Below, one piece after another: positions 1,110-50,112 of a stretch of 64,000 nt of DNA. Under the pieces are notes generated by a model. The model searched no databases, was not told where the DNA came from, and saw nothing but the letters and a program-made list of their open reading frames with translations. Positions within the stretch are counted from its first letter, which is position 1, and every line of letters starts with the position of its first letter. This DNA is from Morinoia aosen (Eukaryota > Arthropoda > Malacostraca > Amphipoda > Talitridae). The stretch spans positions 47,026,102-47,090,101 of the forward strand of contig CM059563.1 in the NCBI GenBank assembly GCA_030386875.1, given 5' to 3'. A program made the translations under genes and the position numbers.

Positions 1110-4030
1110 GTTTCGATACTCAATTAGAAACTGCGAGCGCGACATATAGCAATAAAACAGATAAACCATCACCTTAGTCTTTTACTTTAACTTCCACGGC
1201 TGCTCTCATCCATCGCTTCAGTGTTGGTTTCAAAGTTTAGCTTAACTTGCAATGCTACTCACCAAGTGGTCTATCCCCCTATTTGCTACGATAAGTAGTC
1301 TTAACGTCGTAAAGCTGTTCATGCATTTTGTTGACCAGCTATTCGGTCTCTAAAATATTTCTAATACACATTATTCCTGATGTATAAGCGGACAATTTAT
1401 TTAATTCCACAGCACCTCCTCACTCTTGTAGCTGATCTTCCATTTTGAAAGCTCCTCTATTTTTATTCGGTCTCCAATCACCAAAAATTCTTCCACTATT
1501 CCTGTGCCTACAACCTGTAGTGCGATATTGATTAAAATCCTGCCAGTTTAAGGTGAGAAAGCTACACAAATGCATTTTTTAGGAAACTTAGCACTCACTT
1601 CTCACACAACGGCCACACCACACGTCAAAAAATGTTCATACTTATGTTACGCAAACTTAAACCTATAGCCAGACATTCGAAGCAAATTAGGCAGGGTTAT
1701 TTACACATCGGCAGATAGAAATTTATAATTTAAATTATATTTCAAGGTTTTGTCAAAATTATGCAGGAATCATCCCTACAACTCTCAATGACGTATGAAC
1801 GGGGTTTGTTCATCCAACCTGTAGTGAAACTTCCAATTAGACAGCATAAAGGTTTAGCCTTCTGCATACTTAAAAAACAACCTCCCATTTTGAAAAAAAA
1901 AAAACAGAAGCTGTGTTCTCTTTCACGTACATTGACTTATCGCTGTATTTCCAAGTTTTGTTACTCTGTGATATTGTAGTCTCTATGACAAATTTAAAAA
2001 AAAAAATGTCTTCCCGTTGGAAATTTAACTATAATATACCTTATGCTCATCAAGATATTTTATGTATCATGTATCCATCGCGATGTTTCATGTAGGAAAT
2101 AAAATTATCTGTAGGAAGCAAAAGTTGTATAAGATGGTAAGTATGACAGTTAACGTACCTTGACGCAGGAGCCGGATATCTCACGACCTGCAACAAAGCA
2201 AAATATTACACGCGTAGTGGTTTGCATTTACAGATGGGGAGCGGTTTGAAATTTTGATACATGAGTACTTGTGGGTAAGTATACTTATAAAGGGCGTGTA
2301 AAAAAGTATGCGTTTTTTTAAAATCACTTAGCCCTAGTTGCAATTCACTGTTTCTGTCATATTATCAGGAAATTGGACATCTGAAGCTATCAACATTTTT
2401 GTAGACGGGTTGAATAATAAAAGCTCAGCACGTAGTTAAATGAATAAGGGTATAATTTATATCGTAGAAAACGTTATTTTGAGGTCTCTAAAGTAAATGA
2501 AAAGTTTTGAGGTAATGAATCAATAAAATATCTAGGAAATCATAAGAAGCCAAATTGAAGTAATTCATTCTATCTCATCTGGTACGATAAATATTTGTAT
2601 CCTTCGACACATTCGCCATCACGCTTAACCGATCCTTTAAGCTCAATCTCTCACTGCATGCGCTGTGATGAGATGATTTATCTAGGTCCTCAACTTTCTT
2701 CAGAGGCACGACTATAGTTTCCAACATTGTTTCAAGTGGTCTTTAAATTTCAATCTCTTTTGTTCGAAGGCCGGCGTATCCAAACTTGAAGCATTTCCAT
2801 CTGGAAAGTTTTCTCCACGTTCTCTGCGAACCCGTTGACATTTTTGCGCTTCGGTAAGTTTTAAGACGATGAAAATTTGTTACTCTGCAGTCATTTAAAC
2901 AAGAATTAGTTATGAGCTCGATAATTTAAAGTCTATGTTTTGTTATCATAAATACAATATTTTGAACTTTTGTTGTTCAATTCAGTGTCGCTAAATGAAT
3001 AAAAATACTTTTAGCTAAGGTTTTTCACCCATGTTCATTTAACGATATGCTAAACGTTCTTCATTCAGCATCTTACTGCAAAAATTTCGACAGTTACGAA
3101 GGTTAAATGTTCCTATAAAACGATACAAACAGAATTAAAATATTCGATTCTAACTAGTGACATGGGCTTTCAAAAAGATGCAATTTTTCTCTAATACTTT
3201 ACTAATACATAAATATATCATTTACTCTGAAGGGTTCCCAACACTGGCAACACTGGCCTGTACTTCGGTACAGATATCATTGTTTAAGCACATGAATAGT
3301 GAGGTAAAAATAACGGAAATTAGTAAAAAAGTTCAAATTAAGTGCAATAAATTTCGACATTATTCTCTAATTCAAGGTGGCAAAGTTTCCAAAAATTTAA
3401 TTTTGTCGAAAATTAAACCAACACAGCAACACCCTGCACGCCGCAGGGACTTCAGAGAAGTCGGAGAGTAGCTGCGATTTAGAAATACCTTACCAGCAAT
3501 GAACTCAACATTTCTCCAATGCGTTTCTGCGGTATTCAGATGCTGCCGTTTGCATAATTATCATTGAATAATCAAGAAAAGAGAACATCGCATCGCTTAA
3601 CTGACAAATTTCCCTCTAGTGCATCAAAATCCCTCTCTTCCTAGAGAAATTAGAACTTTTCATCGGCATGATTGTGAAAAGGTTCAACTAGTAAGTATTA
3701 TTTTATCTCCATCTTCGACTTCAGCTGGCATAGAAAAGTGCATATATATACTCGAATATGTAAAAAAATATGAACTAATCATACTTTTTCACAAGCACAG
3801 TTACCTGGACCTGGAATGTATAGTTATATACACAAAAAAAACTCAAATTCGTGCATTTCTGCACAATTTTATAAAAAGATTACCGTACTGATTTATATTT
3901 ATAATGTTTTACTTCTATAAGAGAAACTAGTCCACCCCCCTTTATTTGAAATAAAAAAGAGGGCGAAATGAGAGAAAAGCCGTAAGAAATTGAAAAATAC
4001 AATCTCTCGCGAGTTGATGAGGCCGCGTGA
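1110..4030. other. No gene seen; AT-rich intergenic or intronic DNA
   Basis: Only short ORFs without codon bias or paired splice sites. No clear repeat was identified. Confidence 0.4.
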
Positions 4031-12254: not shown

Positions 12255-12478
12255 GGTGCGGTGTGGTGGGGCAATGTTGTGGGAATGTGCGGTGGGATTG
12301 TGATATAGCAATGTAGTGGGATTGTGCGGTGATGTAGGTGATGATGGGTGATTGTAGGTGATTGTGCGGTGATGATGGGAATGTGCGATGTGATGTAGCA
12401 GTGTAGTGGGAATGTGCGGTGTGATGTAGCAATGTAGTGGGAATGTGCGCTGTAATGTAGCAATGTAGTGGGAATAGG
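12255..12478. repeat. Minisatellite, about 31-bp unit
   Basis: The unit GATGTAGCAATGTAGTGGGA followed by ATGTGCGGTGT recurs, most regular at 12396-12478 and degenerate at 12255-12395. The long minus-strand His/Thr-rich ORFs here are by-products. Confidence 0.8.
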
Positions 12479-14391: not shown

Positions 14392-16201
14392 GTATTTTTC
14401 CATGTTCTCTTTGCTATTACTCGCATTTTCTTTCCTTATTTTCAGAATTCACCCCTCACTGCGTAATATAATTTGAGTGTTAAACCAACATTATTCCTAG
14501 GTGAATATGGTAGAAGAACATTAACATTTCAGGAAACTGTATCATGTATGAGACACTGTACAGTGTAATATTAAGTAATGCATCAATTAGATTGCCACGT
14601 ATACTTCCATCACCACAGGAAAAAACAAACGAGAAAGGAGAACGAAAAAATACCTACAGAAATATTTCCCGGCAAAAAGCCCACGGATGCAGTCAATCTG
14701 AGATAGGAACTTCGTACACATTTTACGTGTGATATGTTTTCAAAAATACTGATGGATAAAACCGCTTTCATTTACTTCTCTAAATCTGTCCAGAATTTCT
14801 TTCATTCTCATGTCACCAGAGCCCACATATGATAAGCAAACAAACATCGTCTTTGCATAGCTTCAGGTTATTTGACAACGACCATAGATCGCTATGAAAC
14901 TAACTATAAATCCAATGCATCCTTTTAATAGGAAATCAGCGAGACCGAAGAGGAAGCGACAATTACTAAAGATAGCAAGACCTACACGGAAAACATTTCA
15001 GAAGCAGATCCTACCCTGGCGAATGACAAAAAGAGCCCTATAAAAGATCCCTCAGGTTTGCCAACGAGCGAAGAGACTTCCGAGCGCCGAGGAGGTCTAG
15101 GCAGCGCCGCAACCAGCCTGTCCAGCGCCCTCTTCCTCAAGAAAAGCTCTCGGAAAGTCTCGCGGTCCTCCACCTCGTCCAGCAGGAGGCGGTCCAGTCA
15201 CTTGTCGCCCAAGGGGCAAGTGAAGCTCCAGAACGAGGAATTCAACCCTGAGAAGGATCCAAGGTGAAATGTAGAATTTACTTCTGGATTCAAGGGGCAC
15301 GTCAATTCAGCTTTCTTCTGTCTTTTAGCTTCAGTTTTCAGTCTAGTGGGCTGAAATAGTGGGCTCTTTCGATATTCTGTTGTTTAAGTGGGCTATTTCG
15401 AAATTCTGTGGCCTGAATTATTTACGGGCATTTCGTACGCAGTATGTTTTTTATTTTCTTGTTGATAAAAATATTCGCCATTCATTCAGATGCGCCACTC
15501 TTGCCAGATATTCCTCATAAACGCGCAATATTTCATAGATCTTGTAGATAATTTTATGATAATATATTTCATAGATCTTGTAGATAATTTTATGATAATA
15601 TACTTCATAGATCTTGTAGATAATTTTATGATAATATATTTCATAGATCTTGTAGATAATTTTATGATAATATATTTCATAGATCTTGTAGATAATTTTA
15701 TGATAATATATTTCATAGATCTTGATCAGGAAGGTTCAGTAGAAATTTCCAAACACTCAATTCGTGCATCGGGATTTTTCTATGACTTTTCGAAAAACAT
15801 TAGCGGAGAGGCACACGCACAAATATTATACGTTGCACATTTCTAACTATATTTAGCTCTTTCACACGCCCATAATTTTAAACTATGAAAACTAAAAACA
15901 GTTAGTAGGGTTTAACGAACATGCTTAATATTTTCCGCTCATGCGGAATCTATGCGCCATTCTTTATTAACGCTTCTGATGATCACATGAATACTTCTTC
16001 AGGTTTACCGACCTCCTGGCCGCGTTGAAAAGTACTCTCCTCACAGACGTGACCGCCCGCACGACTCGAGTGTCACGTGACTGCACCAGCTCTGATGTGT
16101 CAACTGTAACTGCAAGCAACCGCCAGAGCACCACTGAGAGCCGGTCGCTGATGGGTGCGGGCCGTAGCTCATCCAAGTCCACCAAGTCGTCCTTTAGTTA
16201 A
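13690..16201 (+). CDS. Unrecognised Ser/Arg-rich protein, three exons, C-terminal part of a gene
   Basis: Exons 13690-14391, 14932-15263 and 16003-16201 join at GT-AG sites in phase and give about 410 codons ending TAA. The N-terminal part is charged and helical (RLLQEELRRIDRSSREEARA, then LKLATLAHARHVRDKKIDTL). The rest is Ser/Arg/Lys-rich and probably disordered, with a poly-Ser run. I recognise no domain. The ATG at 13690 is the first convincing one; the frame stays open upstream to about 13591, so an upstream exon could feed in. AATAAA lies about 50 nt after the stop. The GC-rich coding composition contrasts with the AT-rich flanks. It is transcribed towards the kinesin gene, with about 9.7 kb between the two 3' ends. 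Confidence 0.65.
14932..15263 (+). CDS. Unrecognised gene, second exon
   Basis: Encodes EISETEEEATITKDSKTYTE ... SSRKVSRSSTSSSRRRSSHL ... NEEFNPEKDP. The acceptor is CCTTTTAATAG and the donor CCAAG|GTGAAA in phase 2. The exon runs from an acidic start to an Arg/Ser-rich middle. Confidence 0.65.
15531..15726. repeat. 36-bp tandem array, about 5.4 copies, in an intron of the plus-strand gene
   Basis: The unit TTCATAGATCTTGTAGATAA plus TTTTATGATAATATAT is nearly perfect in all copies. It has an open frame on both strands (FIDLVDNFMIIY and MKYIIIKLSTRS) only because 36 is divisible by three. Confidence 0.92.
16003..16201 (+). CDS. Unrecognised gene, terminal exon
   Basis: Acceptor ACTTCTTCAG. 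Encodes FTDLLAALKSTLLTDVTART ... SSKSTKSSFS then TAA. The split codon AG|G restores Arg with the previous exon. It is Thr/Ser-rich with no known motif. Confidence 0.6.
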
Positions 16202-26720: not shown

Positions 26721-29700
26721 CTGGAAATGGGGAAAAGTCTTAATTCCCAAGGTCAAAAACAACAAACACCATCCAAAAAATAAAATAGAAACTTCTCATT
26801 TGCATTGCATGAAAAAATGGGAACCAACACTCCTATCCAAAACTCAAATCGAAATAAAAACTCAAAAGAGGTTCATCATATTACTTATTATACAGCAAAA
26901 TGCCACCAACAACGCATTCATTACGACGGTAATAGTGGTTCGTCCCACAATGCACTCAATACAACACTAAGAGCGGCGTGTTACCTCTGGCAGCCTGCAT
27001 GGAGGTCTCCTGAGCGTCAATGTGCCTGAAGAGCTTATGGAGGTAGTGGAGGAAGTGGCGCTGCTGCACGGCGCAGCGCCGCTCCATGTCCAGGCTCGCC
27101 TGCTCGTACGACCACTCCAGCTTCTGCAGCAGCCGCGACTGGTCCTCGAACTGGAGCTGCCAACGCACGGTTCTGGGTCAACTGAGTACCCTATAAGTCT
27201 ACATGTATTATCGGACTGTACTTAATGACCAACTCACGAGTTGAACAAATTTTAAAACTACAATTGAAACGTTTACTTCATACTTAGCCAGCCCGAAGGC
27301 TACAACAGAGTTGACGAGGTACTACGAAACTATAAAGCAGTGTCGCAATACGGTACAAGAGCAGCCAGTATACGACATACCTCGAGCTCAGTGTAGGCGA
27401 TCTCCTGCTTGCGGAACTCGATCCTGATGTCGATGACGCGGCTGAAGTACCTGACGAGGAGGGTTCGGAGCTCCTCGAGGCTGAGGTTAAGGAGGCGGTC
27501 AAGCAGCTTCCCGCGCAGCAGCAGTGTTGACGAGGCCGCAAATTCCTCCGTTCTCCCGCAGATGAGCTCGTTTTTGTACTCAATGGAGGAGTCCACCGCC
27601 TCCACCGCCTCGTCTACCTCCATGAAACGGCGCTCCGCCTCCCATCTCCGACTTTGCCGGTGCATGCCCTGCAGTGCAGCCGGTCAGTTCAGATTCACTA
27701 AAGGTCTAGGTACTCATTCAGTAAGAAACTAACGCTTCCGTCACCCTTACAATATTTTATTATACACCGCATTTTGAAGATACATCAGAATCAATACAGC
27801 TAATACATCATAATTCGCAGCGTACAACGTCATAACAATTCAACGTAGGATCTACTGTAGCATTGACTAAATACAACTGACCGTTCTACAGATTGGCCTG
27901 GATATAAATCCTAAAGATGCACTCAAGACAAAAGTATTTACTTCATCAGCAGCCTATGCTGGGCCAGTGAAAGAATTTTACAAATTCGCGGATGTCTGAC
28001 ACTTCAATTCAGACTTTAATGCGACATTTATTTTACAATAAATATCACAAATATATAATGCAGTGAGTGATATTATGTTGCAAGTCAAAGTCCCTTCCAT
28101 TATGCTGCACGCCCGAGTCCCTGCCACCTATGCTACACGCCTGAGCCCATGCTATCATACAGTGCGTCAGAGCTCATCCTCATCATACTCGATCACTAAT
28201 TCACGTTGTATAGATGACAACAATTAGAACCAATACATACATGACTTAATGAGTAGCAAGTAGCACAGCATCAATGTCAGTGAGTCAACCAAAGCAGCCT
28301 TACCTTTTGGATCTTCTTGTTGAGACGTTGCCTGTACTCGACGAGGGCGTCCCTGGCGTCTCTGAGAGCGGCTATCTCCTGACGGAGGCGCGCCGTCTGC
28401 AAAGCAGGGTCCCCGCCATCACCTTCTCCAGACGACGTGCACTGCACGGCACACACACAGGCATTGTACAGTGATCACCCAAGCTACCCAACGTAGGCGC
28501 AGCAACACTTATTGCACGAGTCTGGGCTTAGATTTTAAGGGTAGGCCCTATTTTTTATCCTTTGCTTCTCGTTCCCTTTTGTGGAGAAACCCAGTGTACC
28601 GAGCAACTGACCTCCTGCATGAGTGTCTACGTCTCTAATTCTGCATTCTCAGTTCATCGTTTTTTGCCAACGTAGCAAGCTATGCTGAAATAACACTGAA
28701 ATGTTCAAATAAAACACTGAAATGTTCAAATGTTCAAATAAGAGAAAATATATTTGCCAATTCAAAATGCGCTCATGGGAGACCAGTCAATGAACAACTT
28801 TGGTAAAGTTAGATTATATATTGCAGCTCCAGGTATGGATGGCTGCACGGTTGAATGTTTAAATAAAGGAGGAAATGTGGTTGTAGAATGGTTGGTACGT
28901 TTATTAAATGTGTGTTTCGAGGCTAGTAAAGTGCCGGTTGATTGAAGTAGCGCGTGTGTAGTTCCGTTGTACAAAGGAAAAGGTGACAAGTATGAGTGCA
29001 GTAATTCTAGGGGTATAAGTCTACTGAGTGTCGTTGGGAAGCTGTATGGAAGAGTTTTAATTGGAAGAGTGAGAGTGTTGACGGATCGCGTGCTTGCTGA
29101 AGAATAGTGTGGTTTTAGGTGTGGTAGAGGTTGTGTGGATCAAATGTTTGCTGTGAGGCAGGTGAATGAAAAATACTTATTAAAGGGAAAGGATGTATAT
29201 TGGGCATTTATGGATCTAGAGAAAGCGTATGACAGAGTGGATCGTGAGGCTCTAAGGCAAGTGGAAGGCTTGTATAGAGTGGGTGGGAGACTGTTGAATG
29301 CGATCAAGAGTTTCTACATTGATAGCAGAGCATATGTGAGAGTAGGGAATGAGGTGAGTGAATGGTTTCCAGTTGTGACAGGTGTGAGACAGGGTTGAGT
29401 GTTGTCGCCGTGGTTGTTTAATTTGTTTATGGATGGTGTCGTGAGAGAAGTGAATGCCAGAGTGTTGAAAAAAGGTGCGCAGTTGGTGGGACGAAATGGT
29501 ATGTATTGGGAAGTGTGTCAGCTGTTGTTTGCAGATGATACAGCGCTGGTGGCTGATTCAGAGTTAAAACTAAGGAGACTGGTTGCAGAGTTTGTTAGAC
29601 TGTGCGAAAGGCGGAAATTGAGGGTAAATGTGAATAAAAGTAAGGTGATGAGATGTTCAAGAGGTGGAGTGTTTGGAACTTTGGATGTGAGGTTGAATGG

Positions 29701-32700
29701 TGAAGTTTTAGAGGAGGTAGAGCATTTTAGGTACCTCGGGTCGGATGTGACTGTTAAGGATAGTATGGAAGTAGAAGTGAGGCATCGAGTGAGTGAAGGC
29801 TGTAAGACATTGGGTGCAATGAGGAAAGTTTTTGAACGCAGGAGTTGAGTATGAATGCTAAGAGGGGACTGTATGAAAGCTTGATTGTGCCAGTTTTGTT
29901 GTATGGAGCAGAGTCCTGGGGGTTGAGAGCAGCTGAGAGGAGGAAGTTGAATGTGTATGAGATGAAGTGTTTGTGGAGCATGTATGGAGTAACAAGAAGA
30001 GATAGGATCAGGAATGAGTTGGTTAGGGGGCAGACGGGTGTTATCAAAAAGTTGAGCAGGCGAGTGGATGAAAGAGTACTTGGATGGTTTGGGCATGTTG
30101 AAAGAATGAATGTTGAGCGGCTGGTGAAAAAGATATATATGTCGGAAGTGAGTGGTCTTCGAGCGCGAGGTAGACCACGGATGAGTTGGATGGATGGGGT
30201 GCGACGTGCTTTGTATGAGAGGGGTCTGACTGTGGACGTGGCGAGAGGGATGACTGCGGACAGAAGTGAGTGGGGGCAGTGTATAAGAAGGTAATTTTAT
30301 TTTTGACGCGGTACTGGAGTTGCCGGCGTGTGATGGGGTTGACCTGTCCTGTGCGGGGGAGGGGCTGCACTCAATGAAGTGGTCGGGGTAAACCAGCTAT
30401 GGCTGTCGGGCCTGACTGTGGAAGGTGGTTGTGCTGGGCTGCTGCTGATCCTGGCAGTTCAGGTGCGGCCAGTGCTGCCTCTCTCGCCTCCTAGTGACTA
30501 GTGTGGTAATTGTGGCCTGCTGTTGGCTACCCTCCCATAGGGAGGATAAGCCCGGTATATGTATGTATGTATGTATGTAGATTATATTATATGTTAGTTT
30601 AAGCATCCCTAACCGCAAAAAAATAGTTTCAAAGAGAAGAAGGAAGAAGGCACCATTTAGTAGGTAGATAAGGGAATGCAGAATCTATGCAGAAGAGGTA
30701 GGCAATAAGTTGAGAAAGAAGTTCATGAAACAACATAAAAAGTGAAGAAGAAAGAAGTAGGTGCTGAAAAACAAGACAGCAGTGAACCGAAAAAAAGTGG
30801 TTCTAAACATACCAAAAAACATTTTATTTCAACAAAAAGAAGGCTTACCAAACTCTCAGCTCGGGCTCTCACACATTTTTCCCTGGGAGTGCTACTTCCT
30901 ATAGATACAATAGTTATATCCCCCTGAGTCGAATACTGTGGTAAACCCTATCAATCATAATAATAATTATATCCATTGTGCACTCATTTGCACACATATA
31001 TTTTAATTTTTTCGAAATTTGGAGACTGTGGCAGATAAGGCCACAAGCTGATCTAAACTTACTCCAGCTGATGCTAGATAGCTGATCTTAACTTACATTT
31101 TACACAGTAGAACTATTTTACAAGTCCTACAGGTTGGAGAAGTTATCAACATTTTCAAGGAGCTCGCAGAATATGGTGAGACTCCAATGCTTCAATACGT
31201 TTTACTATGCATGTGTATTGTGCATAACCTATTCAGTAAGTGAAGAGAATTGTAAGAAAAAATGAAAAAAGGTAACGAATTAAGAAAGAAAACGAAAACA
31301 CTTTAGAATCAGAGGTCATAGAAAAATAAATCAGTGAAAAATGACAAAACAAGAAGAAGAATCGGCAAAAAATTATAAAAAAGCGGAAAATCTGTAAAAA
31401 AATAACATAAAACTTACATGAATTCAGATTTAAAATTATTGCACACTTGTTCGACCTACCCTAACCCGAACTGATTAATTAAAATTTTCTTTACTGAAAT
31501 TTGACAGCAAGAGGCTCCTAAATTCCGTCATAGGACTGTACAAATATATATCTTTCGCAATAGAATCCAGTAAATTTATTGAAATTTTTTATTCGTGTAT
31601 AATTTTCTTTTTGTCTGGTTACTTTTCTGAAATTTAGATGGGGTCTTCCAGCTGATGTTACAAAGAACATACCAGACTGAAACATTTGCGAGGCTTATCA
31701 ACAAGTACATATGCAGAAAGAACTCAGATAAAAATAGTACGAAATCTTCAGACTAGTCCTATTCTTATGATGGGTTACAAGATTTGCCTTTTCTGGCCAA
31801 AATTATCAGATTAGCCTTTTTCCACATACAATTTGGTTACAAAGACAATATAGTATTTAGAATTCATGCCAGGATCCCGAATAAGATCATTGAACAAGAC
31901 TCACGTGTTCAGAGGAGCTTGTGACGAGCCTTCTCTTGTGAGGCTGTGACAGACCCTGAACAGACACAACAGCTTTAGTTCTGCTCTTGGGGGTTGCCCG
32001 CGTAGTGACGGCTTTGCTTCGGCCGAGAGAGGATAAGTCAGCTCCTTTAATGACATTAGAAGGTGACGAAACATTACTCGTCTTAGCAGAAGCGTGATCA
32101 TGTGCCGCGTTCGGTAAACTGTTTTCGTGCGCTCCTGTACAACTGTCAACCTTAGCCTTCGCAGTACTGCCATTCACGCCATTACATGCACTACTCCTAC
32201 AATTTCCGTCTACATCGCTGGCATTCACACAATTCTCTTTATTACATCCACCACTATCAAGTGGAACACTGGACTGAAAATCATTTTTACACCAGCTCCT
32301 TCCATCGACAGTGCAAGAGCCATTTTCGTTTTTAGCGCTCGTGGCGCTTGCACTTTTCATGCTGACGTCTTGTGCGTCATAAGGGGTGAATTTATCATCA
32401 GTGGAGGTGAGATGAACAGGACGCTCAGCAGGAGACAACGGTGGCACATCACGAGTGTTCTGCTGCGACTCCACCATGCTTCCTCCTCCGGTACGGTCGT
32501 CTTCTGAAGCTGCAGTGCGCATGTCCGCCTGCAACATCGAGAGTAAAATAAACAATGAACACACTGCACAAGCGTGTACAAAGAGATAACCGAGAGAGCT
32601 CTGAAAACAGGTTCGTACCAGAGTTGGATAATTAAAGCTGTTAAATCGGATGGTTAGAAAAGAAATAGATTTCCCAGAACTGGGACTAACAGAACACAGT

Positions 32701-38700: not shown

Positions 38701-41700
38701 TTCTCACGGATATTCATCATTTTCCCCATGGTTCGATACAGTCTGAGCTACAAAAGCGCCCGAAAACCTACGTTACAACTGCTACAACTCATTATTTCTA
38801 TCACAACGACTCATTTTTTCACGGAAGGTGAACTGAAGCGTCATTTCCTTGGTCACCATTCGTATGGTAAAGACAGGCGCTGACCTTTTCATCACGGAAG
38901 GAGAAATGAACATTCCCTTCTCTAGTCCCTATTTATATGTTCAAGACAGGAACTCACCTTCTCTTGGAAGGTGACATGAAAATTCCCTGCTCTGGTCCAC
39001 ACTTGCATGGCCAAGACAGGCCCTCACCTTCTCCCTGATGGTCTCGGTGAGCTCCCTCTGCCGCCGCTTGTTGGCCTCCCTGACATGGAGGGCCACCGCC
39101 GACGTGCAGGTGCCGGCCAACCACAGCTGCTGCGCCGCCCCTTCGCCGCCCCCCGCGCAGCTCGCATTGCGGCGGCGGTGTGCGGAGCCTGCGTCAGGCA
39201 TCTCCTCCTCCGCAGCGTCCTCCGAGGCGGAGGAGGACTCAGACTCGCAGCTGTCCATGTCCATGTCGCTGTCCTCGCCCGAGTTGGAACTGAGCTTCTC
39301 ATCGACACTGCTGCCGTCACTGAGCAGATCCCCGTGCAAGTCTTGGTAGCTGTTGGCCCCTCCGTCACCTCCCTCTACTGCCGTCTCTTTCAGTGAAGGG
39401 GCCGACGTTTTTGATGTTTCTTTTTCTTGGTCGAGAGAAGAGAGAGATCGCTCAGTGTCCATTTTTTCCAAGGAAGCTCCATCTTTAGCGCCCATGGGGT
39501 CGTCTTCCTCACTGCTTGCGTCCGCTGACGTCATGAACTCACTGAACACGTCTAGCCTGTGAATAAAAATTTTTGCTTCAAAATGCAATCTAAAGTTCAT
39601 CAGGTGCTGTTTGTGAGTCAGTGCAAGTGCCGTCAGTGTGTCAAAAAGCTCTCAGCTTCAAAGAAAACTGGCCTAATCGAAATGAAGAAGTATCTTATTA
39701 AGCGACACCCAGCAGTGTTGAACATCAATGAAGTGAAATTTCGAGAATTATCATTGACTTTATATTAATGCATGCAAACAAGTTCATGAGATTAATAAGT
39801 CAATGACCATTGTCAGGAATAAGAACAAAACATCTAGAATGATGGCGATAGGAAAGATCAGGTGATAGAAAAGCAAGTGAGTTTATGTGAGTGAGTCGAG
39901 GGTGGCGGTAATGAAATTATCGAGTCCAAATGATGTGAAGTTATTTAAGTCATCAGAGACTGAAATAATACACTATACACCTAAATGAACACCACAAATC
40001 ACAAGAGACAGCATCAGTGCACTGCACACCGAAATGCACAACACAAAGCCACAAACCATACCAAAAATGAGTGCGTAAGCGCCCAGCTGGCAGCACCGAC
40101 CTGTCCTGCACGGCGCCCACGAGGCGGCAGGTCTGGTCCCCAAAGCTGGTGATGAGGACAGCGAGCTGCTCGTGGAACTCCTCCCCCAGGCTGCTGGTGC
40201 TGCTGCTGCTGCACGAGTTGCAGCTGCTGCCGGCGTCGCTGTAGGCGGCAGCGTTGGGCGCCGCCGCGGCCGCCGCGCTGCTCGTGTTCCTGCTGCTCGT
40301 CTTCAGGTCGCCAGGCTCGCTTAGCTCCTCTGGAAAAATATGATTGGAAACATCTCCCCATTATATTATTCATATTATATTAAATCATATTCTTTTGATG
40401 AAAAAATAGGTTTTTCATTAAAGATTTTTTTTTCGGTTCACTGTTTTTCTGTTTTACAGTACATATCACTTTCTGCCTAATTTTTATCTTGTTTCAACTT
40501 CCTGCTCAACTTACAGTTTCTATGAGCAAGGAACCTTATGAGAGATCACACCCCTTTAATGTTGCAGTTTGGGTCTTGTGAAGCCTACCGGGTTTAGAGA
40601 CATTAAATTCATTTTTTTTAATTTCGATTCATTTTGACATTATTGTACCACATAAGTACAAAAATTGCAAGAAAAAAGTGTAAATTTCAACTGTCAATTA
40701 AAAGAGGATTCACAAACAAATAATAGTAAATGACTCACTTGATTGTTGACAGTACAGTTACACTACACATTTTTCACTTCAAATTAATCTAAGTCAAGTT
40801 CAATTTAATCCAAGTCAAGTTCAAATTAATCCGAGTCAAGTTCAAATTAATCCGAGTCCAGTTCAAATTAATCCAAGTCAAGTTCAAATTGATCCAAGTC
40901 AAGTTCAAATTGATCCAAATCAAGTTCAATTTAATCCAAGTCAAGTTCAAATTAATCCAAGTCAAGTTCAAATTAATCCAAGTCAAGTTCAAATTGATCC
41001 AAGTCAAGTTCAAATTGATCCAAATCAAGTTCAATTTAATCCAAGTCAAGTTCAAATTAATCCAAGTCAAGTTCAAATTAATCCAAGTCAAGTTCAAATT
41101 AATCCAAGTCAAGTTCAAATTAATCCAAGTCAAGTTCAAATTAATCCAAGTCAAGTTCAATTTAATCTGAGTCAAGTTCAAATTAATCCGGGTCAAGTTC
41201 AAATTAATCCAAATCAAGTTCAAATTAATCCAAGTCAAGTTCAAATTAATCCGAGTCAAGTTCAATTTAATCCAAGTCAAGTTCAAATTAATCCGAATCA
41301 AGTTCAAATTAATCCAAGTCAAGTTCAAATTGATCCAAGTCAAGTTCAAATTGATCCAAATCAAGTTCAATCTAATCCAAGTCAAGTTCAATTTAATCCA
41401 AGTCAAGTTCAATTTAATCCGAGTCCAGTTCAAATTAATCCAAGTAAAGTTCAAATTCATCCAAGTCAAGTTCAATTTAATCCGAGTCCAGTTCAAATTA
41501 ATCCGAGTCAAGTTCAAATTAATCCAAGTCAAGTTCAATTTAATCCAACTCAAGTTCAAATTAATCCAAGTCAAGTTCAAATTAATCCAACTCAAGTTCA
41601 AATTGATCCAAGTCAAGTTCAAATTAATCCAACCCTCAGTTGAGTTAAAAAATGACACAATAATTTGTTAATTTGAGTTTTTTGTGTTAAATATGTATCT

Positions 41701-44700
41701 ATTGGATGTGATGAGCAAAACTTGTTTCGAGGATTGATTTACACTCATTGCAATTTATATACGTGAAATTCCACGTTATCACATCTATGAAATCAAATAC
41801 ATGCAAATACAAAGGTTATCATTGAAAAATATGTAGATTTAATTTTTAAAATAAATATACAAGTGCGATTCACTGAGTACTAATGTACGATTCCGTTTGA
41901 TTACAATTTATACTTGTACATTACTACCCAGATGCATTCCTGCATTAGCAATATAAATGTTGCCATCCATTCTAATTCCGTGTTAGTCGATGTGAAGAAA
42001 TGTAGGATCCACTTACAATACACAACAATAATACAAGAAACAATGTTTCTAACTTAATACTGATTTTATTTGTGTGTGTTCACAATTCAATATATTATAC
42101 CTTCAAGACTTAAATATCCATTAAATTATTATTATAAAAGTTATTGAAGTCTGAAAAGCATTATATATTGAATTGTAAACACACACAAATAAAATCAGTA
42201 TTAAGTTAGAAACATTGTTTCTTGTATTATTATTGTGTATTGTAAGTGGATCCTACATTTCTTCACATTGACTAACACGGAATTAGAATGGAGGCAAAAT
42301 TTTTATTGCTAATGCAGGACTATATCTGGGTAGTAGTGTACAAATATAAATTGTAATTAAACGGAATCGTACATTAGTACTCGGTGAATCGCACTTGTAT
42401 ATTTCTTTTAAAGATGAAATCTACTTATCGTCCAATGATAATATTTTGTACTTGCATGTATTTGATTTCATATATGCGATATAGTGGAATTTCACGTATA
42501 TAAATATCTATGAGTGTAAATAAATCCTCGAAACAAGTTTTGCTCATCACCTCCAATAGATACATATTTAACACAAAAAACTCATACTAACAAATTATTA
42601 TGTCATTTTTTAACTCAACTGAGGGTTGGATTAATTTGAACTTGACTTGGAATAACTTGAACTTGACTCGGATTAATTTGAACTTGACTCGGATTAATTT
42701 GAACTTGACTCGGATTAATTTGAACTTGACTTGGATTAATTTGAACTTGACTCGGATTAATTTAAACTTGACTCGGATTAATTTGAACTTGACTCGGATT
42801 AATTTGAACTTGACTCGGATTAATTTGAACTTGACTCGGATTAATTTGAACTTGACTCGGATTAATTTGAACTTGACTCGGATTAATTGGAACTTGACTC
42901 GGATTAATTTGAACTTGACTTGGATTAATTTGAACTTGACTTGGATTAATTTGAACTTGACTCGGATTAATTTGAACTTGACTTGGATTAAATTGAACTT
43001 GACTTGGATTAAATTGAACTTGACTTAGATTAATTTGAAGTGAAAAAGGTGTAGTCTACTCGTGTAATATTCATATTTTTATTGTTCACGCTGGTGTACG
43101 CAGCACACTAAAAATGACGGCATTCACAATAAAGAACATAAATAATGAATCCTCTCAATTAATGGATCAGGTAAAACGGTGCAAATACTAAAGGCAAAAT
43201 TAGATGAGTTAGGTCCAAGCCTCTCTCATCACCAGAAAGGAGTTCCAAACAGAAGAAGGAGGACGGCACCATTAACTTTGGAGTTGAGGAATAGGAAATC
43301 TATGACAAAGGTGTGTTCCTGCACAATACCCCTAGCACATAGAAACAGTAACCCGGAAAAGAAGTTTATGAAACAATGTAACATCAGAAAAAGAAAGTAG
43401 TAGGTAATGATAATCAGAACAGCAGTAAACCGAAAAAAAGCAATTCGTAAGACAATAAAACACTTTTTCTATGTTAAAAAAAGAAGGCTCACCTAACCTT
43501 GAGACTGGAACTACACATTTCCCTCTTGGAAATGCTCATTACTCTTGGTACAATAGTTGTTTTTCCCTTTAAGGGCGTCAAGCATCCAAATGAAATGACT
43601 GAAGAAAAGATGTCTATAATCAATCTAGAAAATTTACGATAAAAAGTCGCCTTAGATAAAGGCTTCTTTCAGCCTTAGATAAAGGCATCTTTCAAACACA
43701 TCAACTTTTTGAACTCAGAAAAGCACTGGCACACATGGTGAAGTAACTCAAGTTAGTACGAACACTCACCAATTACATGGAGCGTGCGGTCATCTCTACC
43801 CAGCAAGCCAGGGTAGGCCTGGTTGACAGGGCCCCAGTACCGGCCGTCGTGGTAGAAAGGTCCACCAAACGCAGGGTACCCCGCCAGCACATGCGGGCTA
43901 CCCGCAGCAACATCACAGTGCTGGGACACGCCAACGTACTGCGACGCTGTGATGGGCCCGCCAAGGCAGTGGGCGGTCTCGCTCCGCCTACACAGCCACA
44001 CTCCCGCCTGCGTCTGCAGAGCCACCGGCAAGAACGGCAGGCAGGAGCGCAGTATCCCGTCTGCAGCATCCACCAGCTGCTGCAGCTGGTTGCTCCCGAA
44101 CTGCAGCCTGCAACCCAGTGCGCCAGTTATTCTCCCCATTTTTTCAAGATGCACACATTAACCATAGTTGTAAGAAACTTCAAACGGCGATTGTGTATGA
44201 GAACCATCTTTAGTAAAAATTCATGCAGTATTGATATAAAATGGCTGCCATGAACCAGTTCATTCTATGAAACCTTCAGAAAACCTACTCCATCCTCAGT
44301 TAGTCAAACTGTAACATTTGTAGCTATGATTGTAAGCAAATTTTGAAGCAGATTTATTTTGGTACGGAATATTGATTTTAAATATGGGACAGCGTCCCCC
44401 ATACAGAACTTTTTTTAATTATTGAACTTAGAGCAATGAAATGTGGTATACTGATAGGAAATGCATTTGGAATCGTTTATTTTCTATGAAAAAATGCAAC
44501 TTTCTTTGAAAGAAAATGGGAAATCAAAGAAAACGGTATATTAGGAGGGGTAGAGAGTTCAAAATGCTTCTTGTCCGAGTTTTTGAGCTACAGTGATGAT
44601 TTTAGTATCATTGGATGCGGAAAGACGAGGGCTTTTATAGAAACTAAAATTTATTCCCATAACTTTCAGTTTTAAATAAAAAGTTAAAAAAATTGAGCCA

Positions 44701-47700: not shown

Positions 47701-50112
47701 CTAATACAAGCGCGATAGCTCTGGTGACCACTATCATAACTCCAATGAGAGAGGGATACCACCACATCTCATTGCGTTACTGAACATATCACACAAACCT
47801 CCACTGCCAACCATGACTTTTATACCACCATATCTCGTTGTGTTACTGAACATATCATACAAACCTCCACTGCCAACCATGACTTTTATACCACCATATC
47901 TCGTTGTGTTACTGAACATATCACACAAACCTCCACTGCCAACCATGACTTTTATACCACCATACCTCGTTGTGTTACTAAACATGTCACACAAACCTTC
48001 ACTGCCAACCATGACTTTTATACCACCATATCTCGTTGTGTTACTGAACATATCACACAAACCTCCACTGCCAACCATGACTTTTATACCACCATACCTC
48101 GTTGTGTTACTGAACATATCATACAAACCTCCACTGCCAACCATGACTTTTATACCACCATATCTCGTTGTGTTACTGAACATGTCATACAAACCTCCAC
48201 TGCCAACCATGACTTTCATACCACCATATCTCGTTGTGTTACTGAACATATCATACAAACCTCCACTGCCAACCATGACTTTTATAACACCATATCTCAT
48301 TGTGTTACTAAACATGTCACACAAACCTTCACTGTCAGCCTCTTCCAGAGGCTTGCACTGATAATCTGAAGATGCAATCCTACTTTCAAATGTAACTAGT
48401 TAGTGCCAAAATCATGAGTATGAGAACAGGCAGAGTTCATGATCTCTGTTGCACGTGGGAGGCGTTGGTGCGAGTTTCGTTATTGATCTGAGTGAACGTC
48501 ACTGTTGCACATGGCATCTATTTAGCACTAATGGCTCTAAACAGCATCCATTTAGAACTACTAAAATATCATTCATTTATCTTAAAGATGAAAGTGACTA
48601 TTCCGAATCTTTGTTGCAGGTTGATTACTCACAGCATACTCATTATCTACCAAACAATCAAAATATGAATAAACAAAAAACTAGGTATCTCTAAACACAA
48701 AGGACATTAATCATAACTTTATGGTGAAGGCTTTCCCAACTCAGTCCTAATCTTTCATGCGGAGAAGTGTTATTCAAGTAATATCAGAAGTCATTACCTC
48801 AAAAAACATGCTCTGCTAACATTAGTAATGGCACAATACTACAATACTTGTACGCTAACAAAGATAAATTACACACAATATAGATGGCGATTTTTCAAGA
48901 TTTTTGTAGGTCACTTGAAGATTAAACGTACAACACACTCAAACAATTAAGATCAATAATTTCATGATGCCTCAGAGCACGCAAGTCTAGAAGGTATGCA
49001 GACTAGAACAGTTTTCCCAATGTTTTGTTCAGCAAGTTCAGCAACAGCCGTCATCTGTAAGTCTAAGGGAAATGATGAGAATTAGATTAGCTTACGCTTT
49101 CCTAACCACAGCAAAATTGCCCCGTAGAGAGAAGTGAATAATTTATCAAATACGGATTTCATCAGTGAATTTTTACACAGGAGGATGTTGAAATTAAATT
49201 ACGAGTTAGTTGATGGTTCCCTAACCACAACAACGGTGTTCCAAATAGAGAAATGATATAGGAACCTTTTAGTATGGAGTCGGGTGAACGGAGAATTTAG
49301 GCACAAGGTATGTTCACAAACAAGATCCCGTATGCATGGAAACTGCAATTGAGGAAACAAGTTTATGAAACGAGATAAAATTCAAAAAGAAAGTAGTACG
49401 TGATGAAAAACAAGACAGCAGTAAACCGAAAAAAGTTAGTTCAAAACAAAAATCCTATTCTATTTCAACAAAGGAGGCCTATCTAAGATTCAGCTCGGGA
49501 CCTCACATTTTTTCCAGAGATGAATTCACTCGAGGTGTTTAAGTAATCAGCAGAGAAACTCACATCGCCATAACTAGCAAGATGGCCATCGTTAAACACT
49601 GTAATTTAAACAAAAAAATAACTACCTGAGTGTCGGCAAGAAGAGCAGCAACTTCGCTGGTGATGTCGTTGATGCACGGCCGGTTGATGATGTAGCGCGC
49701 CAGGCCGCCGTACTTCATGGCGAGCAGCGTGGCGGGCAGGTCCTCACGCCGCGGCGACGCGCAGCACACTAGCAGCGTCAGGCAGTTGCCCCCTAAACTC
49801 TCCTGCAACGTTGGGACAATGTCAGCGTATCAGCGTCTTACTATGATATTCCTTCATTTTTGGCATTAGAATGGCGTTTATTTAAAATTGCTAAGGTGAC
49901 ATTCATTGATCTTTTACGTGAAAATGACTTATGAGTCTATGTTGCATTCTGATTAGATGTAACTTACTGAGTAGCAACCTGACAAAGAATCAAAACATGG
50001 ATAAAATAAAAATTAAAGACCAAAAAGAACAAAGCATATCGATCACAACTTTACCGAGCGAGGCATGAGAATAAATCTTCACAGATATTGCAAAGAACAT
50101 AGAAAGAATTCA

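Follow-up and report, generated by a model that had tools for sequence, protein, structure and literature searches.

A stretch of 64,000 nucleotides from the genome of the amphipod Morinoia aosen (contig CM059563.1; this whole stretch is called the window below) contains a 2.3-kb palindrome that is one copy of a dispersed family. The copies share fixed ends and a common palindromic core, carry unequal arms made of 21-bp tandem units whose arrays change length in place, and occupy target sites consistent with TA in CTAG. Judged from its sequence features, the family very likely consists of non-autonomous foldback (long terminal inverted repeat, long-TIR) elements, similar to miniature inverted-repeat transposable elements (MITEs), that would be moved in trans by a putative Tc1/mariner/IS630-type transposase with a preference for CTAG.

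Dispersal and architecture of the palindrome family

In the window, the element proper extends from 40766, where it begins with CACATTTTTCACTTC, to 43051, where it ends with GAAGTGAAAAAGGTG. The initial annotation of the window, made from its letters, had described a 2.3-kb palindrome with end arrays of about 41 and about 20 units and nearly complementary inner arms, and all of this is borne out: the longest inverted pairs measure 595 nt at 92% and 431 nt at 93%, the arrays comprise 40.7 and 19.6 units with a period of 21, and the core of about 1 kb between them is AT-rich (28% GC) and itself palindromic, with 480-bp arms that are 91.8% identical. Every reading frame of at least 110 amino acids in this copy is repeat-derived, although no search aimed at a P-type transposase was made, and no Rfam family matched in the window at gathering scores.

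The genome searched comprises 1.99 Gb in 29 contigs. A search with the palindrome returned at least 262 matches, with the best 40 of 4,104 first-look candidates scored. The 24-bp end CACCTTTTTCACTTCAAATTAATC has 1,848 exact matches (909 + 939) and its reversed control none, while the 27-bp end CTACACCTTTTTCACTTCAAATTAATC has 1,531 exact matches against 0 for its reversed control, so that the end of the palindrome is not a product of chance; the consensus 21-bp unit matches exactly at 12,395 places (control 0). Twenty loci from among the best palindrome matches (L009–L028) were cut as 10-kb pieces, and in all 20 the core of the window copy aligns along almost its entire length, in both orientations and at 83–91% identity. 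Fourteen further loci, picked on contigs C1 and C2 for two exact ends lying close together, carry the core as well, though most of them lack part of it. With so many ends and so many loci bearing the core, the palindrome is plainly not confined to a single genomic locus, and the many copies of the same architecture in different flanks speak against the other doubt that the initial annotation had raised, namely that the inversion might be an artefact of assembly.

Two-ended copies were measured in a set of 33, comprising the window copy, L009, L011–L040 and L042, with L010 omitted because one end was found and L041 because it holds two insertions; the set contains duplicates of the same insertion (L013/L014, L031/L033, L032/L034 and L015/L022–L028). 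Inverted arrays of unequal unit number are present in all 33, with 4–93 units per array (median 15), and the spacing is exactly 21 for 1,660 of 1,681 unit intervals. The duplicates reveal that the arrays alter their length in place, after insertion. L013 and L014 have common flanks, and their left core arms are 98.5% alike, yet L013 has 36/25 units and L014 has 45/42; the eight L015/L022–L028 duplicates carry 72–93 units on the long arm and 4–16 on the short one. Unequal exchange or slippage would change the unit number on each arm separately once the element has been inserted, and duplicated insertions of this kind allow the timing of array growth.

The initial annotation had also suggested that different unit variants dominate in the two arms. 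At one unit position of the window copy this is the case, with A in 32 and G in 9 units of the left array and G in 12 and A in 7 of the right (Fisher p = 0.003). However, the mean number of differences between units is 1.97 within the left array, 1.20 within the right and 1.80 between the arms (permutation p = 0.001, 2,000 shuffles); the value between arms is smaller than that within the left array, and the arm signal therefore stems mainly from the more uniform right array.

A tree built from the 32 core arms of 16 copies (the duplicates L013/L014 and L015/L024 included) is star-like, with a median tip of 0.044 and with 6 of 29 inner branches well supported and 16 open. One nine-row fork (94/96) consists of one arm from each of nine copies, and the right arm of the window copy falls inside it while the left arm falls outside. 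Such a tree is in keeping with a copying burst that started from a single palindrome with arms already slightly different from each other.

Some observations on the surroundings and ends of the copies stand beside these results. In L015 and L022–L028 the palindrome belongs to a larger segment, at most about 8.7 kb long, copies of which occur on several contigs with 93–98% identity, and seven of these eight pieces also contain a second, older, one-sided end with about 5–7 degenerate units. On contig C19, near 29015229–29015655 and 30377310–30377399, there are tandem copies of the 15-mer CTACACCTTTTTCAC, which equals the first 12 bases of the element plus the outer CTA; its 6 exact doublets in the genome all lie at those places, which look as if one insertion end had been tandemly amplified.

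Target site and mobilisation

Among the 1,848 exact 24-bp ends, 1,616 have TA outside, 1,531 have CTA and 1,491 have WCTA (W being A or T). C thus stands outside TA at 1,531 of 1,616 TA-ends genome-wide, as an IS630-like preference for CTAG would have it. In 51 distinct 12-base flanks, which were found with the outer base ignored and a few of which stem from near-identical duplicates, CTACACC is preceded by A in 34, by T in 17 and by C or G in none, and among 100 CTACACC-end matches listed the outer base is A in 76 and T in 24. Filled sites read W-C-TA-[element]-TA-G-W.

Empty sites could be compared at five places. L041 holds two insertions, J1 and J2, in one Tc1-like repeat whose seven relatives L044–L050 lack the element at both places, and a BLAST search with joined flanks found relatives spanning the junction for L018, L009 and L012. 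When nothing, TA, CTAG or CTATAG was placed between the flanks, CTAG gave the top score in 16 of the 17 comparisons made with relatives. With all 256 four-base inserts scored, CTAG had the highest sum of site means (515.9, followed by CCAG with 509.4). Taken site by site, it stood alone in first place for L018 and L012, and its rank was 2 at L009, 4 at J2 and 32 at J1. Where the insert was a spacer of 0–10 unknown bases, a length of 4 was best at J1, J2, L018 and L012 and tied with 3 and 7 at L009. The relatives of L018 and L012 have exactly CTAG. Two further copies, L011 and L042, adjoin one common point of a repeat (X), and the X copy in the window reads CTAG at that point (3927–3930); they count as half-sites only, since just one flank of each falls in X.

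No target duplication of 7–10 bp was seen by eye at 25 insertion sites (23 plus the two in L041), and the empty sites and half-sites fit a single W-CTAG-W; the empty target is therefore most likely W-CTAG-W and the duplication most likely TA inside CTAG, which is the best fit for the target duplication that the initial annotation had left to be defined. A duplication-free or Helitron-like insertion between A and T, raised by the A or T of the outer base, was dropped on the evidence of the empty sites. Repeat X (window 3927–4018, L011, L042 and L041) is itself short and dispersed and starts with C(T/C)AGTCCA(A/C)CCCCC; its terminal CTAG is the site of two palindromes, and one X copy lies within a palindrome core.

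Duplication of TA is the mark of the Tc1/mariner/IS630 group, in which Sleeping Beauty is a Tc1/mariner member, and because of this mark a transposase of that group acting in trans is inferred. TA insertion with TA duplication fits the five scored empty sites and the two half-sites, though L019 lends it no support, and the inverted terminal repeats that are a feature of the group are present. The ends CACCTTTTTCAC... would presumably be recognised in trans by such a transposase, which would excise the element and insert it by cut-and-paste at the palindromic WCTAGW, duplicating TA. The first 21-bp unit overlaps the terminal repeat and the units continue inward with a period that equals two turns of B-DNA; they can reasonably be taken as putative binding sites, repeated for the transposase or a partner.

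Several observations weigh against this reading. At the empty sites the relatives are only about 70–92% alike, and the one comparison of the 17 that did not favour CTAG, J1 with L045, scored TA at 111 and both CTAG and nothing at 109. CTAG is not the commonest sequence in the relatives of J1 (ACAG in 4 of 7) or of J2 (CTAA in 5 of 7), and the L009 relative reads CCAG. At L019, whose setting is the simple tail of a different repeat, the best score went to TA against two of five relatives, to nothing against one and, by one point, to CTAG against one, with all tied against the fifth. A TA duplication alone is no proof of Tc1/mariner, and no transposase with the family ends was found in searches with diverging ends, with DDE_3 and with ends bearing the inner CCAAG unit. 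Ends that diverge after 15 bases occur at 65 places (reversed control 2), and the 25 with letters shown comprise 23 mutated family members, one shifted by two bases and one unlike the family (C2:12142113). The DDE_3 transposase family is widespread in the genome, but no listed match is tied to a family end (best 150 of 6,722 candidates scored), and no recurring long end pair appeared among the 100 of 658 matches listed for ends with the inner CCAAG unit. Lastly, in L037 and the L015/L024 group the left and right core arms fall together in the tree, and the arms are therefore not always independent; arm conversion or renewal may have taken place there.

Two observations came from the same searches. 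At C1:807459–815203 and C1:6932079–6939803 an exact end on one side is matched, at a distance of about 7.7 kb, by an exact unit that points inward, and these are possible long relatives or chance pairs; as long relatives they were set aside, their far ends not being exact and their spacing not recurring among the places listed. On contig C27 there are several COX1 matches with open frames and no TGA, while the mitochondrial-type copies on C26, C28 and C29 have 8 TGA; the best DDE_3 matches of the genome also lie on C27, which may hold bacterial sequence.

The empty sites bear equally on a rival account, in which the ends proper would be CTAC...GTAG and insertion would replace 4 bp of the target without duplicating any. 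It predicts identical filled and empty sequences and draws support from the 4-base spacer favoured at the empty sites and from the bases that would have been replaced, which differ from CTAG in the majority of relatives at J1, J2 and L009. It is nonetheless improbable, since L018, L012 and X do have CTAG, as a TA duplication in CTAG predicts, and since TA in CTAG reportedly has a precedent in IS630, whose transposition to that target is named in the title of a 1991 paper by Tenzen and Ohtsubo.

On top of mobilisation by a Tc1/mariner/IS630-type transposase, a bolder and rather doubtful idea can be put forward. A eukaryotic IS630-like transposase with a strict WCTAGW target might have driven a convergent foldback form, with the 21-bp units, all on the same face of the DNA helix, forming a cooperative landing strip by which the transposase is captured in trans; lengthening of the arms through unequal exchange would then be favoured, and long-armed copies would outcompete their short-ended relatives.

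Putative intronic setting and folding potential

Table 1. Features of the palindrome locus, in window positions.
Feature	Positions	Strand	Details
Putative intron of a minus-strand gene, holding the element	40330..43769	-	Bounded by GT donor and AG acceptor, reading frames in phase across it; from sequence reading
Left target half, W (A) + C + TA	40762..40765	+	Left TA copy at 40764-40765; basis: local sequence, genome-wide ends, empty sites
Left terminal inverted repeat CACATTTTTCACTTC	40766..40780	+	Basis: sequence
Left 21-bp array	40778..41632	+	40.7 units, 91% match (Tandem Repeats Finder); 41 by other counts
Left unique core arm	41633..42112	+	
Palindrome centre	42113..42147	.	Bound approximate: arms taken as 480 bp from each side
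Right unique core arm	42148..42627	-	Inverted, 91.8% identical to left core arm
Right 21-bp array, inverted	42628..43039	-	19.6 units, 95% match (Tandem Repeats Finder); 19 or 20 by other counts
Right terminal inverted repeat CACCTTTTTCACTTC	43037..43051	-	Basis: sequence
Right target half, TA copy + G + W (T)	43052..43055	+	TA copy at 43052-43053; basis: sequence

On the minus strand, GTGAGT comes directly after an open frame that ends at 43770, and the following frame opens at 40329, preceded by TTTTTCCAG, with phases that join; the element would thus lie within an intron (43769–40330). The frames flanking this putative intron had no Pfam match, and among ten frames of the window Pfam matched one, a reverse transcriptase fragment (RVT_1, window 29399–29848, E 7.5e-13). 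The minus-strand RNA of the palindrome is predicted to fold at -1415 kcal/mol, compared with -462 to -485 kcal/mol for six first-order Markov-resampled sequences, in a structure that has 465 pairs with a span above 900 nt, so that the extremely long hairpin foreseen in the initial annotation is supported as a folding potential.

This predicted fold, together with the putative intron around the palindrome, would agree with a role for the host, in which the intronic palindrome is transcribed and forms a long hairpin that feeds the production of small interfering RNA (siRNA). Such a role seems unlikely, as any palindrome of such length folds in this way and as the star-like core-arm tree, with its median tip of 0.044, looks as it would for unconstrained insertions. 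Intronic palindromes of such size are candidate sources of inversions and of small RNAs. Elsewhere in the window there are two other tandem arrays, one of 66-bp units at 47756–48334 (8.8 units, 94% match), which is open in several frames, and one of 36-bp units at 15528–15724 (5.5 units, 98% match).

Comparison with known systems

The initial annotation had likened the palindrome to Foldback and Galileo elements. The likeness of plan stands, since long inverted arms, tandem repeats of variable number and little or no loop are found in 33 of 33 measured copies, and there are many copies; in the parts of the reports cited here, Galileo and Tetris have the same architecture (PMC3573991, PMC4079207). 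The kinship finds no support. A true Foldback/Mutator or Galileo/P-type element, moved by a transposase of Mutator or P type with 7–10-bp target duplications, is very unlikely, because neither the 7-bp duplication of Galileo and P elements nor the 8–10-bp duplication of Drosophila FB and Mutator-type foldbacks is found at the sites inspected by eye or at the empty sites, which fit TA in CTAG instead. That there is no transposon at all, but satellite arrays spread by recombination or circles and paired in inverted orientation by chance, or else an artefact of assembly, would suit the 12,395 exact units and the change of array length in place, yet the fixed ends and the empty sites, together with one conserved core and differing flanks, already go most of the way to refuting it, and it can be considered extremely improbable.

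If the assignment to the Tc1/mariner/IS630 group is right, a large family of foldback plan with a TA/CTAG target would show that this plan can arise in yet another superfamily, and the family would lend support to a role of the arm arrays in transposition. Arms built from short tandem repeats in inverted orientation are also found in Foldback (FB) of Drosophila and TU of the sea urchin, which the present family resembles in this respect, and their target duplications, of 9 bp in FB and 8 bp in TU, differ from that proposed here.

Galileo, a member of the P superfamily in Drosophila, is described in the cited part of its report as having long, internally repetitive TIRs and 7-bp duplications, and it resembles the palindrome family in that its repetitive TIRs vary in length independently and that some copies are made of two TIRs only (PMC3573991). 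The tandem repeats in Galileo TIRs can bear extra transposase sites, according to the excerpt drawn on (PMC3688188). Unlike the palindrome family, Galileo has, in these accounts, 7-bp duplications, a P-type transposase and, in D. mojavensis subfamily F, a tandem repeat region of about 210 bp. Tetris, a non-autonomous foldback of Drosophila virilis with units of about 220 bp, 8–10-bp duplications and a proposed kinship to Mutator, shares with the palindrome family long TIRs with variable inner arrays that expand, the lack of a conserved open reading frame and a transposase that was not found, as far as the cited portion goes, whereas the palindrome family differs in its 21-bp units and its TA in CTAG (PMC4079207).

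With IS630 and the Tc1/mariner elements the family most likely has the TA duplication in common, although those elements encode a transposase. ISY100, a bacterial member of the Tc1/mariner/IS630 group, uses TA as nearly its sole insertion target and duplicates this target, according to the part of the report cited (PMC2170065). A search of the literature turned up no IS630/Tc1-mariner element with kilobase satellite palindromes, which is not to claim that none is in print. The nearest likeness as a satellite-bearing MITE of Tc1/mariner type is offered by miDNA4 of Xenopus tropicalis, which carries a satellite array of variable copy number; in the cited parts of its descriptions, in contrast to the palindrome family, the satellite lies inside the MITE, and the element is not a palindrome with one array per arm (PMC12628747, PMC9659126). 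Taken together, these likenesses and differences, read at the level of sequence, make it probable that the family is a non-autonomous foldback of Tc1/mariner/IS630 type.

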